Origin: an uncultured Pelagibacteraceae bacterium
GTDB lineage: Bacteria > Pseudomonadota > Alphaproteobacteria > Pelagibacterales > Pelagibacteraceae
Length of the DNA stretch: 64,000 nucleotides
Direction: 5' to 3'
Assembly: GCA_902624315.1 (NCBI GenBank)
Contig: CACNXC010000001.1
Location: forward strand, 62,001-126,000
Positions 7,731-12,176 of the stretch are shown here, piece by piece (position 1 is the stretch's first letter; each line of letters opens with the position of its first letter). The notes beneath the pieces were generated by a model. The model searched no databases and was not told the DNA's origin. It saw nothing but the letters and a program-made list of their open reading frames with translations. A program made the translations under genes and the position numbers.

Positions 7731-8710
7731 TAATTTTTCTCTAAAAATTTTACAATTTTTTTTGTAAATGAAGGCAACATGTAGTTGTCTAATTTTTTTT
7801 CATCTATCCAATGTGGTGACTTAAATTTTTCATATTTTTTTAAATATTGAATTTTAATGTTCATATTCATATTAGACATTTTGAAATTTATATTTTTATT
7901 GAAATTTTTTGGTTTGGACGTTTCCTCCATTGGAAATATCTTTAAATTTTTCAAAAAATTAAATTTAGTATTTTTAATTAATAAATATCTTTGTTTTTTT
8001 TTATAAACCTGAAGTATAAAATATTTATCTTTATTTTTTTTATTGTTCTTCGTAATACTAAAATCTTTTTTTTTGTAAGATTTACAACTCTCATTTACAG
8101 GACATTGAGAACAAACTGGATTATTTGGCTTACAAATTAATGCTCCTAATTCCATGAGCGCTTGAGCATAATCACTTGATCTTAATGATTTACCAAAAAT
8201 ATCTTTTTTTTTTATAAGATTTTCTTTTTGTATTTCACTTTGTTTTTTCAAATAAAGATATCTTTTTAAAACTCTTTCGATATTTCCATCTAGTGGAATG
8301 TATGGTTTGTTGAATGCAATTGCTAAAATAGCACTAGCAGTGTAATTTCCAACACCAGGTAATGTAATTAATTCCTCAAAATTATCTGGAAGTTTTCCAT
8401 TAAAATTTTTGATTACAATTTTGCCTGTTTTTTTTAGATTTCTTGCTCTAGAATAATAACCAAGTCCCTCCCAAAGTTTTAAAAGTTTTCTATTTTCAAC
8501 TTTTGCAAGACTATGAAAATTTGGAATTTGTTTTATAAATTTATTGAAATATGGAATGACTGTAGCAACTTGAGTTTGTTGCAACATAAATTCACTTAAC
8601 AACGTATAATATTGTTTTTTTGAGGGTGAGATTTTTTTTCGCCAAGGCAATTTTCTCTTATTAAAATCATACCAATTAAGAATTTTTTTTGTTAATATTT
8701 GCTCTTTCAT
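7730..8710 (-). CDS. mutY: A/G-specific adenine DNA glycosylase
   Basis: 326 aa from the ATG at 8710; an upstream ATG at 8755 would extend it by 15 residues into the divergent gene. It removes A mispaired with 8-oxoG. Visible are the KLPWR start, the LLSEFMLQQTQVATVIPYF helix, the helix-hairpin-helix LPGVGNYTASAI with the catalytic Asp in PLDGNIERVL, and the iron-sulphur motif Cx6Cx2Cx5C (CKPNNPVCSQCPVNESC). The C-terminal NUDIX-like 8-oxoG recognition domain is short and divergent. The start codon directly abuts that of the divergent DUF721 gene. Confidence 0.95.
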   Translation of the reverse strand: MKEQILTKKILNWYDFNKRKLPWRKKISPSKKQYYTLLSEFMLQQTQVATVIPYFNKFIKQIPNFHSLAKVENRKLLKLWEGLGYYSRARNLKKTGKIVIKNFNGKLPDNFEELITLPGVGNYTASAILAIAFNKPYIPLDGNIERVLKRYLYLKKQSEIQKENLIKKKDIFGKSLRSSDYAQALMELGALICKPNNPVCSQCPVNESCKSYKKKDFSITKNNKKNKDKYFILQVYKKKQRYLLIKNTKFNFLKNLKIFPMEETSKPKNFNKNINFKMSNMNMNIKIQYLKKYEKFKSPHWIDEKKLDNYMLPSFTKKIVKFLEKN

Positions 8711-9199
8711 ATGCAATTTAAGAAATATTCTAAGCAGAGAGGTGGTAGCATTCAAGGATTAAGATCTCTTAAAGACACTTTACCAACAAACGTTAGGAGA
8801 GTAATAAATAAAAGAGGCCATATTTATTCTGAAACGCTTAATAATTGGAGATATATAGTGGGTGAAAAATTATTTAAAGTTTGTTATCCAAAATCTTTTA
8901 AGAATACCAACAAGTTCAGTGTAAGCACGCTCTTAATAATGGTGCAAAGAGGTCATGAAGTTGAGTTAGAATATTCAAAAAAAGAAATTATGGATAGAAT
9001 GAATGCTTTTTTTAAAGATGAAGTTGTTAAACGGATTAAATTTACAAGTTTTAATGATGAGAATAAAATAGATAATCAAAAAATAATTCAGAATAAACCT
9101 GTGACAAACAATAAATATAAAAATAAACTTAATGATGTTAAAAATGAGCAAATCAAAAATTCATTGATTGAATTAACAAAAGTTTTTAAAGAAAAATGA
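8711..9199 (+). CDS. DUF721 / DciA-like protein
   Basis: 162 aa from the ATG at 8711; an in-frame TTG at 8699 would add four residues inside mutY. The region ETLNNWRYIVGEKLFKVCYP followed by LLIMVQRGHEVELEYSKKEIMDRMNAFF is the DUF721 core. This family includes DciA, the widespread replicative helicase operator of bacteria lacking DnaC or DnaI. The C terminus is low-complexity and Asn/Lys-rich. The mutY-DUF721-dsbA-smc order is conserved in alphaproteobacteria. A DciA role is inferred from family membership, not proved by sequence. Its stop overlaps the next start (ATGA). Confidence 0.8.
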   Translation: MQFKKYSKQRGGSIQGLRSLKDTLPTNVRRVINKRGHIYSETLNNWRYIVGEKLFKVCYPKSFKNTNKFSVSTLLIMVQRGHEVELEYSKKEIMDRMNAFFKDEVVKRIKFTSFNDENKIDNQKIIQNKPVTNNKYKNKLNDVKNEQIKNSLIELTKVFKEK

Positions 9200-9771
9200 A
9201 AAAATTATTTCTATTTTTAATACTAATTTTTGGATTTAGTACTGTTGCTAGCGCAGAAATAAAGAGGATAGTTTCAGGAAATCAAAATGCAAAGATTACC
9301 ATAATTGCCTACGAGTCTTTAACATGTAGCCACTGTGCAAATTTTCATAAAGATGTTTACCCCTCTCTTAAAAAAGATTTCATAGATAAAGGACTAGTCA
9401 AAATAGAATTTCGACACTTTCCTTTAGATATTGCTGCTTTAAATGCTTCAAAAATTTCTCTTTGTAAACAAGATCAAAGCCTAGAAATTTTGGAAAAACT
9501 TTATTCTAATCAACAAGCTTGGATAAAAGGTAAGGAAATAGAAGATGTAAATAATAATTTAAAAGAATTTCTAAAAAACGCTGGGTTCGATATTGATTTT
9601 GAAAAGTGTATCAACAACAAAGAAATAGAAGATTATGTTTTAAATGATCGAATCGAGGGGACAAAAAATTTTAAAGTTAATTCTACTCCTACGATAATAA
9701 TTAATAACGAAAAGTTCGAAAAATCTCTTAATTATAAAAATTTAAAAAAAACATTAGAAAAACTGATATAA
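9196..9771 (+). CDS. DsbA-family periplasmic thiol-disulfide oxidoreductase
   Basis: 191 aa. Residues 1-20 are a typical signal peptide ending ASA before EIKR. The thioredoxin active site is CSHC (C44-C47) in YESLTCSHCANFH, and the cis-Pro region is FKVNSTPTIIINNEKF. Two more Cys (near 90 and 130) could form a structural or substrate disulfide. The protein resembles the DsbA/DSBA-like oxidoreductases that sit between DUF721 and smc in alphaproteobacteria. It is translationally coupled to DUF721 by a 4-bp overlap; smc follows after 8 bp. Confidence 0.9.
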   Translation: MKKLFLFLILIFGFSTVASAEIKRIVSGNQNAKITIIAYESLTCSHCANFHKDVYPSLKKDFIDKGLVKIEFRHFPLDIAALNASKISLCKQDQSLEILEKLYSNQQAWIKGKEIEDVNNNLKEFLKNAGFDIDFEKCINNKEIEDYVLNDRIEGTKNFKVNSTPTIIINNEKFEKSLNYKNLKKTLEKLI

Positions 9772-9779
9772 GTTAATCC

Positions 9780-12176
9780 ATGGAGTTTAAAAAAATCCAA
9801 CTCAATGGATTTAAGTCATTTGCAGATAAAACTAATTTCTTAATTGAAAATGGTTTGACAGGTATTGTGGGCCCAAATGGTTGCGGTAAATCAAATATTG
9901 TTGAGTCTTTGAGATGGGTAATGGGCGAAACATCTGCAAAAAGCATGCGAGGATCAGGCATGGAAGATGTTATATTTTCAGGAACATCAAACAAACCTTC
10001 TAAAAATATTGCTGAAGTTTCAGTAACTGTAGCTAATGAAAATAACGAGGGTCCAGTGCAATTTAGAGAGTTAGATGAAATAAATGTTAGAAGAAAAATA
10101 GAAAAAGATAAAGGTTCGAAGTTTTATATCAATGATAAAGAAGTTAGAGCAAGGGATGCTCAAATGTTTTTCGCAGATTTATCAACTGGAGCTCACTCTC
10201 CATCAATGATTAGTCAGGGCAGAATTGGTGCCCTTGTTACTGCGAAACCTACTGATAGAAGAGCAATTTTAGAGGAGGCTGCAGGAATTTCTGGGTTACA
10301 TGTTAGAAGACATGAGGCTGAACTAAGGTTGAGCGCTGCAGAAAATAATCTAAAGAGAGCTGATGAATTAAGAAGGCAACAGGAAAGGCAATTAGCAAAT
10401 TTACAAAAACAGGCTGAAGAGGCTACAAAATATAAAAATATTTCTGATGAAATAAAAAAAATTGAAGCAGGACTATATTATCTAAAATTACTAGAGATCG
10501 ATAAAGAAATTAAAATAGAAAATGAAATTAATATAGAAGCAGAAACTGAAGTCAGTGGTTTTAATAATAGAATTAACGAATTAGAGAAACTAATTAAAAC
10601 TGAGGTTGATAAAATAACTCCTCTACGAGAAAAAAATATTGAAAATTTATCGAAGATACAAAGGCTAAACTTAGAACTTAAAAGTCTAGATGAGGAAAAT
10701 AGTAGAATTCAAGACGAAATAGAAAATGTAAAAAAATCTCTACAAACAATAGATGATGATATTAGCAGGGAAAGAGGGATAGTGATTGATGCAAACTCAA
10801 ATGAAAAAAGACTGAAAGAAGAAAAAAGCGAACTTATTGAAATCGACTCAAAATATTATCAAACTGAGAAACAATCGAATGAAGATTTGGAAAATAGTAA
10901 GAATAAATTAAAATCAGAAATTGATAAAATTAAACAATTAATTAATTCACAAAAAAATGATGATGCAATTAAATCACTAGATGATTGCCAATTTGTCATC
11001 GAAGAATATGCAGATAGTTATAGTAAAAATCAAAATATAAAAAGAGAGTCTGTCAAAAGAAATGAGAGAATTGCAATAATTGATAAAGAGATAGAGAGTT
11101 GGAAAAATCTTTTATCTAATTCGGAAAAAATGGTAGCAGAATTAAGTGATAGAAAAAATAAACTTAATGTGCAACGAGATAAACTTGATAATCAACCAAA
11201 ATTTCAGGCTGAAAAAAAAGGGCAAATTTCAGAAAATTTAAGAATTTCTGAAAATGAAAAAAATGAGAATGAGGAAATTATCAATTCCACAGATGAAAAA
11301 ATTGATACTCTTAGAAATCAACTTAACGAGATACAAGAACAATCTATTCAGATAAGAGAACGAAAAGCAAGTTCAGGTGCAACAATTGAGGGACTAAAAA
11401 AAAGAAAAAATGATTTAGTTGATAGAGTTATTTCTGAGCTAAATCTTACAGAAGAAAACATTTTAGAAAATTCAAATTTATTTGGTGTCGAAGAATTGCC
11501 TGATGCTGTTAATCAAGAAGACTTATTAGATAAAAAAAAACAAGAGAGAGAAAAATTAGGCTCGGTTAACCTAAAGGCTGACGAAGAGACCGTAAAATAT
11601 GAAACAGAAATTAAGAAAATGGAACAAGATAGAGCAGACTTAGTTACAGCAATTGTAAAACTCAAAGATAGTATTAATGAGTTAAATCAAAAAGGAAGGG
11701 AAAGACTAATTGAGGCCTTTGATAAGGTTAATAGAAAATTTAATGAGGTTTATACAAAATTATTTAATGGAGGAAATGCTAAGCTTGAATTAGTTGACTC
11801 CGATGATCCTTTAGAAGCTGGTTTGGAAATGTTAGTAAGTCCTCCAGGAAAAAGACTCCAATCAATAACTTTATTATCCGGAGGTGAGCAGGCTTTAACT
11901 GCACTATCTTTGATTTTTGCTGTTTTTCTAACTAACCCCTCGCCAATATGTGTTTTGGACGAGGTTGATGCACCCTTAGATGATGCCAATGTAACAAGAT
12001 TTTGTGGCTTGCTTGAGGAACTTATAAAAATTACAAATACCAAATTCATCATTGTTACTCACCATGCTTTGACAATGTCAAAAATGAATAGACTTTATGG
12101 CGTCACCATGCCTGAAAAGGGAATAAGTCAGCTTGTGGCTGTTGATTTACAAAAAGCAGAAAGCATGGTTGCTTAA
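9780..12176 (+). CDS. smc: Chromosome partition SMC ATPase, short form apparently lacking the hinge
   Basis: 798 aa, against about 1150 for usual bacterial SMC. The N-terminal ATPase lobe is intact: Walker A GPNGCGKSN at 31-39 and the RRAILEEAAGISGL segment near 160. The C-terminal lobe is intact too: signature LLSGGEQALTALSL near 697, Walker B ICVLDEVDAPLDD, and a final ITNTKFIIVTHH switch region. Between them lie about 500 residues of polar coiled coil (Glu/Lys/Asn/Ile-rich). No globular, glycine-containing hinge domain of about 150 residues was seen in the centre; the only break in the heptads is around 400-425 (KNDDAIKSLDDCQF). The reading frame is open throughout, so this is not a frameshift artefact. 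ScpA and ScpB genes are not in the window. Confidence 0.93.
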   Translation: MEFKKIQLNGFKSFADKTNFLIENGLTGIVGPNGCGKSNIVESLRWVMGETSAKSMRGSGMEDVIFSGTSNKPSKNIAEVSVTVANENNEGPVQFRELDEINVRRKIEKDKGSKFYINDKEVRARDAQMFFADLSTGAHSPSMISQGRIGALVTAKPTDRRAILEEAAGISGLHVRRHEAELRLSAAENNLKRADELRRQQERQLANLQKQAEEATKYKNISDEIKKIEAGLYYLKLLEIDKEIKIENEINIEAETEVSGFNNRINELEKLIKTEVDKITPLREKNIENLSKIQRLNLELKSLDEENSRIQDEIENVKKSLQTIDDDISRERGIVIDANSNEKRLKEEKSELIEIDSKYYQTEKQSNEDLENSKNKLKSEIDKIKQLINSQKNDDAIKSLDDCQFVIEEYADSYSKNQNIKRESVKRNERIAIIDKEIESWKNLLSNSEKMVAELSDRKNKLNVQRDKLDNQPKFQAEKKGQISENLRISENEKNENEEIINSTDEKIDTLRNQLNEIQEQSIQIRERKASSGATIEGLKKRKNDLVDRVISELNLTEENILENSNLFGVEELPDAVNQEDLLDKKKQEREKLGSVNLKADEETVKYETEIKKMEQDRADLVTAIVKLKDSINELNQKGRERLIEAFDKVNRKFNEVYTKLFNGGNAKLELVDSDDPLEAGLEMLVSPPGKRLQSITLLSGGEQALTALSLIFAVFLTNPSPICVLDEVDAPLDDANVTRFCGLLEELIKITNTKFIIVTHHALTMSKMNRLYGVTMPEKGISQLVAVDLQKAESMVA

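Follow-up and report, generated by a model that had tools for sequence, protein, structure and literature searches.

The window, that is, the whole stretch of 64,000 nucleotides analysed here, contains an open reading frame of 798 aa at positions 9780–12176 of the forward strand, which starts with ATG and is free of internal stops. The frame, the two genes upstream of it, and the parts of the encoded protein are as follows.

8699–9199, forward strand: dciA, the upstream neighbour, used as a synteny anchor (PF05258 DciA, 51.9 bits)
9196–9771, forward strand: DsbA-like thioredoxin gene directly upstream of smc, a second synteny anchor (PF13462, 124 bits)
9780–12176, forward strand: smc, encoding a hinge-less SMC of 798 aa (open reading frame, SMC profile, and hinge profile)
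9780–10295, forward strand: N-terminal ATPase lobe, residues 1–172, with its end placed at the LEEAAGISG motif (profiles and marks)
9870–9896, forward strand: Walker A stretch GPNGCGKSN, residues 31–39 (invariant in 39 aligned rows)
10296–10946, forward strand: ascending coiled-coil arm, residues 173–389 (AlphaFold2 helices 171–247 and 255–389)
10938–10988, forward strand: tip motif LI-x7-A-x3-L-x2-C, residues 387–403 (comparison of 798- and 857-aa proteins)
10947–10955, forward strand: predicted hairpin turn, residues 390–392, at the usual hinge site (AlphaFold2)
10956–11759, forward strand: descending coiled-coil arm, residues 393–660 (AlphaFold2 and common marks)
11760–12173, forward strand: C-terminal ATPase lobe, residues 661–798 (profiles and marks)
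11874–11891, forward strand: ABC signature LSGGEQ, residues 699–704 (39-row alignment)
11946–11984, forward strand: Walker B and D-loop ICVLDEVDAPLDD, residues 723–735 (39-row alignment)

The window protein scored 673.3 bits against the NCBIfam profile SMC_prok_B (TIGR02168), which exceeds the curated cut-off of 567.35 bits. Residues 31–39, 699–704, and 723–735, which we take to be the Walker A, ABC signature, and Walker B/D-loop motifs, respectively, were invariant or almost invariant among the 39 aligned relatives, and the two ATPase lobes are complete. Among solved structures, the closest in sequence were bacterial Smc heads. A fold search with the monomer model returned the heads of SMC, Rad50, and MukB, as expected, and did not inform on the tip.

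The hinge is regarded as a basic part of the ring formed by the chromosome-organising protein SMC, in which it is the dimerization site, a proposed DNA gate, and a DNA-binding surface. The Pfam profile SMC_hinge (PF06470) gave no match to the window protein, even at E values up to 10. This silence is weak evidence because PF06470 matched in merely 64 of the 192 genomes of the class, and its use as the sole hinge test was dropped. We therefore built a class-tuned profile from 54 alphaproteobacterial hinges and scored 195 SMC rows, comprising 105 hinge-bearing, 86 hinge-less, and 4 viral-contig rows. The hinge-bearing rows (102 distinct) scored 61.7–217.8 bits, and the lowest among them (61.7–106.7 bits) were outside the training set of the profile. 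The 86 rows from Pelagibacterales and MarineAlpha6/SP38, a second marine lineage of Alphaproteobacteria, (78 distinct) scored −28.7 to −6.0 bits, that is, the hinge was absent, and the viral-contig rows, which were kept out of both groups, scored −8.3 to 2.6 bits. A hinge hidden inside the longer forms of 857–891 codons was ruled out, as every one of them scored below 0 bits. The class-tuned profile is decisive and confirms that the hinge of the window SMC is missing and not merely diverged.

The AlphaFold2 monomer model (39 rows) consisted of a helix at residues 255–389, a turn at residues 390–392, and a helix at residues 393–554, which together form a long helical hairpin; the pLDDT was 80–87 across residues 371–410, and the overall pTM was just 0.48. 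By common marks, the ascending and descending arms of the window protein were 217 and 269 residues long, respectively, versus means of 349 and 397 residues for canonical SMC (35 rows over 1100 aa), which indicates that approximately 130 residues are missing from each arm. In the profile alignment to canonical SMC, the heads and head-proximal arms were matched on both sides, and the distal arms and hinge of the template were unmatched, save for 23 residues of the tip that were loosely aligned close to where the hinge begins. The tip was one of the more variable regions (mean pairwise identity of 0.53 at residues 381–400 in 11 rows), and its hydrophobic density in the 798-aa form was no higher than that of the arms. 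The tip therefore carries no strong sequence sign of an interface. A hydrophobic-rich bundle at the tip was considered and is unsupported for the 798-aa form; the 857-aa form described below has one richer stretch, at residues 428–441.

These results bear out the preliminary description, made from the letters alone, of a 798-residue SMC that has its two ATPase lobes but apparently no hinge, as neither profile matched and the monomer model has no hinge fold at residues 380–470. That description had named a short break at residues 400–425 as the only candidate turn; a turn exists, but it is predicted at residues 390–392, just before that break. The Rad50-like turn that it had envisaged agrees with the hairpin shape of the monomer model but not with a zinc hook, as the CxxC hook of the Rad50 type was found in none of the 78 distinct hinge-less proteins. 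Residues 420–441, beside the tip, are punctuated by basic residues and include a Trp that does not vary (W441); their conservation is above that of the tip, and their counterpart in the alignment to canonical SMC is the distal arm.

The clade of the window genus comprised 46 distinct proteins, of which 18 had a length of precisely 798 aa and 28 a length of precisely 857 aa; no intermediate lengths were present. The dimorphic region extends over residues ~379–470 of the 857-aa form and residues 379–405 of the window protein (loci L013–L025 and L154–L195). The tip motif, which was defined post hoc with the rows already seen, was present in all 18 distinct 798-aa proteins and in 24 of the 28 distinct 857-aa proteins, and ML replaced LI in the remaining four. 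The motif lies at residues 387–403 in the former and 416–432 in the latter, and thus the 59 extra residues are divided into 29 and 30 on the two hairpin strands. AlphaFold2 again gave a hairpin for the 857-aa form, with a break at residues 446–447 and a turn at residues 419–421, which matches the place of the turn in the 798-aa form; the tip confidence of this model was low (only 54–79). In a tree computed without the tip columns, the two forms alternated, with at least 4 length switches, 3 of them forced by well-supported branches. The recurrence of the paired change at identical size is suggestive, at the sequence level, of two tip alleles that may be swapped by recombination. Amino-acid differentiation between the length forms peaked in the interval spanning the tip (0.36, with a background of mostly 0–0.3), residues 1–24 reached 0.34, and third codon positions at the tip showed little differentiation (0.12 vs 0.03–0.11). 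The scan leans weakly toward tip-allele recombination.

The dciA and DsbA-like genes also lie upstream of smc in Bartonella (L206), which has a canonical SMC, in MarineAlpha6 (L190), in an alphaproteobacterium with short SMC arms (L138), and in the sister family of the order (L184). This shared neighbourhood indicates that the window gene is an ordinary alphaproteobacterial smc by descent. In a tree of the heads only, built with no actinobacterial rows, the order fell inside Alphaproteobacteria, and the 13 Pelagibacterales rows formed a single clade (100/100). The MarineAlpha6/SP38 rows were placed apart on a long branch, which implies two changes; a topology forcing all 15 hinge-less rows together was not rejected (AU p 0.355). 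Phage and viral origins were considered and rejected: the phage records gave 14 partial matches, each of them below 60% identity and spanning less than 80% of the query, and the viral contigs gave 10 weak matches.

We detected smc in 57 of the 58 Pelagibacterales genomes, several of which are single-contig, and found no smc gene in G019 (91% complete). The longest Pelagibacterales smc open frame among those listed was 891 codons. The 80 named loci included 43 complete frames of Pelagibacterales and MarineAlpha6/SP38, which were 798–864 aa long and in which the hinge motif was absent; L160, L186, and L193 were incomplete at contig ends, L179 and L181 were without a complete frame, and L197 had no sufficiently long frame. 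MarineAlpha6_Bin4 and SP38 (L189 and L190) possess an SMC of 817 aa, which is also hinge-less. In the Pseudomonadota set, 72 of the 120 genomes gave an SMC match, and among the frames listed only that of the window's own genome was short (799 codons), the others being 1148–1523 codons; the smc gene of G315 was split across two contigs. Small alphaproteobacterial genomes, e.g., G061, G062, G066, G073, and G074, gave weak matches to the SMC model (E values of 4e-8 to 7e-4), and such genomes may perhaps be without smc. The survey that included them covered the best rows only, so short SMCs may escape it, and 18 genomes were re-examined.

In regards to the partner proteins, ScpA and ScpB were each found in 52 of the 58 genomes of the order, and the same six genomes (G012, G016, G040, G043, G049, and G053) gave no match to either. 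ParB was found in 55 of the 58 genomes, without a match in G008, G031, and G051. We read these absences as presumed assembly gaps. The genome that contains the window carries scpA and scpB side by side on a different contig (G000:C3), flanked by nagZ-like and tatC-like genes, which were named from reading their translations. ScpA was also present in both MarineAlpha6/SP38 genomes and in two of the four other named Pelagibacterales genomes tried. The retention of ScpA, ScpB, and ParB indicates that the hinge was lost without loss of the complex. The main reading of the preliminary description, a hinge-less and perhaps streamlined condensin, is thus supported by the profiles, the monomer model, the presence of scpA and scpB in the same genome, and the relatives, since every frame listed for the order is in the same state and no close relative has a full-length SMC. 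Its view that the gene is not an assembly error agrees with the occurrence of smc across the order, including single-contig genomes.

The absence of a hinge, the intact ATPase lobes, and the conservation of ScpA, ScpB, and ParB make a functional Smc-ScpAB condensin the most likely reading. Judged from its sequence, the window protein is very probably a hinge-less SMC that works with ScpAB. The full explanation, to which we give a probability of about three in four, is that an orthologous smc lost its hinge together with about 130 residues of each arm and now encodes the hairpin-ended subunit of Smc-ScpAB.

Condensins of this type are recruited through ParB-parS; ATP brings their heads into engagement, and ScpA forms an asymmetric bridge between the two heads. 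By this established biology, the hinge-less SMC would be recruited by ParB, its two heads would be engaged by ATP, and ScpA would bind one SMC at its head and the partner SMC at its neck. Lacking a hinge, the SMC pair would hold together through the kleisin, which acts at the heads, and through interactions of one coiled coil with the other, including those at the hairpin tips. The outcome would be a compact clamp or ring with no globular hinge gate. We consider the chances even that the two subunits are kept together in this way. The exact lengths of 798 and 857 aa, kept by 18 and 28 distinct proteins, respectively, favour constrained arms, and the less conserved tip, its ordinary hydrophobic density, and the pTM of the model count against the proposed dimer. 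The facts published on Bacillus subtilis Smc, as given in the accessible text of PMC5344682, make a hinge-free dimer formed through ScpA and arm contacts plausible. According to the part of PMC5526789 available to us, B. subtilis can grow on an Smc whose hinge has been exchanged for a Rad50 zinc hook.

A possible but doubtful alternative is that the hairpin tip is a new dimerization module, in which a pair of tips would form a small helical bundle and replace the hinge in the manner of the Rad50 zinc hook. The tip motif is common to the 798- and 857-aa forms despite their 29 and 30 differing stalk residues, the predicted turns occur at matching places, and unrelated dimerizers can replace hinges (PMC5344682, from the accessible text). 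However, the motif is a post hoc one, the identity and hydrophobic density of the tip are ordinary, tips from other genera and from the sister family look dissimilar by eye, and the 857-aa model has low confidence at its tip. Rather unlikely, in our estimate, is an open-ended clamp with unassociated tips, whose arms would be joined only via ScpA and the ATP-engaged heads and which would grip DNA but form no closed SMC ring. The absence of both hinge and hook from the sequence and the presence of the kleisin and kite partners agree with such a clamp, but the arm length is fixed to the residue in each form, which a free, unanchored end would not obviously need, and arm-arm contacts have been reported for hinge-mutant B. 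subtilis Smc (PMC5526789, in the part available).

A hinge provided in trans by a separate polypeptide is very improbable. A six-frame search of whole genomes with a 17-row hinge alignment gave no clear separate hinge gene in 20 Pelagibacterales genomes, and nothing positive speaks for one apart from a lone chance-level match of 13.9 bits in G011 (E value of 0.03, in a frame of 217 codons); the other 19 genomes gave none. The hinge was found in all seven control genomes (E ≤ 1e-40), four of which had supplied rows to the profile and three of which had not, and a further search was negative in six additional hinge-less genomes and positive in its single control. A tip-binding partner without homology to the hinge is possible. 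A Rad50/SbcC-type repair protein shares the general shape, two ATPase lobes on a coil that ends in a hairpin instead of a hinge, and is scarcely credible here; the window protein is a far better match to SMC_prok_B (673 bits for TIGR02168 vs ≤45 bits for the Rad50 models), it lacks CxxC, its synteny is that of smc, and its nearest solved structures are SMC heads. An assembly error, frameshift, or decayed gene, for which only L179 and L181 could be cited, is already refuted by the conserved architecture in 57 of 58 genomes and 43 complete named loci with strongly conserved heads, and its probability is negligible.

The window SMC resembles the canonical alphaproteobacterial Smc (~1150 aa) in its ATPase lobes, head-proximal arms, ScpA/ScpB partners, and gene order (dciA, DsbA-like gene, smc) and differs from it in the absent hinge and the shorter arms. 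A hinge-less SMC without CxxC was described in a marine actinobacterial clade by Sussfeld et al. (2025), who placed these proteins, annotated as from Actinomycetes, near the base of actinobacterial SMC (PMC12153180, in the part of the text available). Both types have SMC heads on an antiparallel coil, are marine, and are known from AlphaFold predictions; they are likened here by description and not by sequence, and the heads and gene order of the window are alphaproteobacterial. The available main text of PMC12153180 makes no mention of SAR11, Pelagibacter, ScpA, or kleisin. The SAR11 protein is a real, order-wide hinge-less Smc, and the hinge-less state has been published once already, for another phylum. 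No report of a hinge-less SMC in SAR11 was found in the open-licence literature searched.

The engineered B. subtilis Smc proteins that carry a Rad50 zinc hook or have had their arms shortened likewise function without the SMC hinge fold and show a constrained arm length; in contrast to the window protein, they are artificial and still have a dedicated dimerization domain (PMC5344682, accessible text). The term hinge-less in the available parts of PMC8327961 and PMC5526789 refers to engineered or mutant proteins, and the reverse swap, the MukB hinge placed in Rad50, is described in PMC6969161 (partial text). The arm lengths of prokaryotic SMC have modes at 238, 341, and 515 aa in the accessible text of PMC5344682; the SAR11 mean arm of 243 residues is near the first and the canonical mean of 373 residues is above the second, with arms defined differently in the two studies.

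It appears that an order of very abundant marine bacteria runs its condensin without a hinge and with the other subunits kept. Whether a condensin requires a hinge can thus be asked of the SAR11 SMC as found in nature, and loop-extrusion or DNA-entrapment experiments with SAR11 Smc-ScpAB would directly address, on a natural system, the long-standing question of the purpose of the hinge. Together with the report on marine Actinobacteria (PMC12153180, as far as its text was available), the SAR11 case would indicate repeated hinge loss in marine lineages. We put forward, as a conjecture with the odds somewhat against it, that natural condensins need no hinge: SAR11, MarineAlpha6/SP38, and, independently, marine Actinobacteria would each have shed it and would operate Smc-ScpAB as a clamp with short arms, closed by the kleisin and coiled-coil tips, with arm length as the conserved quantity and with tip alleles of the SAR11 genus, 29/30 residues apart, exchanged between lineages by recombination.

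The word streamlined in the preliminary description suits the small genomes of the order but is not sufficient as a cause. The small alphaproteobacterial genomes G082 (L137) and G191 (L138) encode SMC proteins of 864 and 881 aa, respectively, with much shortened arms that are similar in length to those of the window protein by common marks; unlike the window protein, both retain the hinge (145–147 bits, both rows being within the training set of the profile). A small genome alone therefore does not dictate hinge loss. The opposite extreme occurs in the same class, in G078 and G188, whose SMC open frames are 1523 and 1531 codons long.
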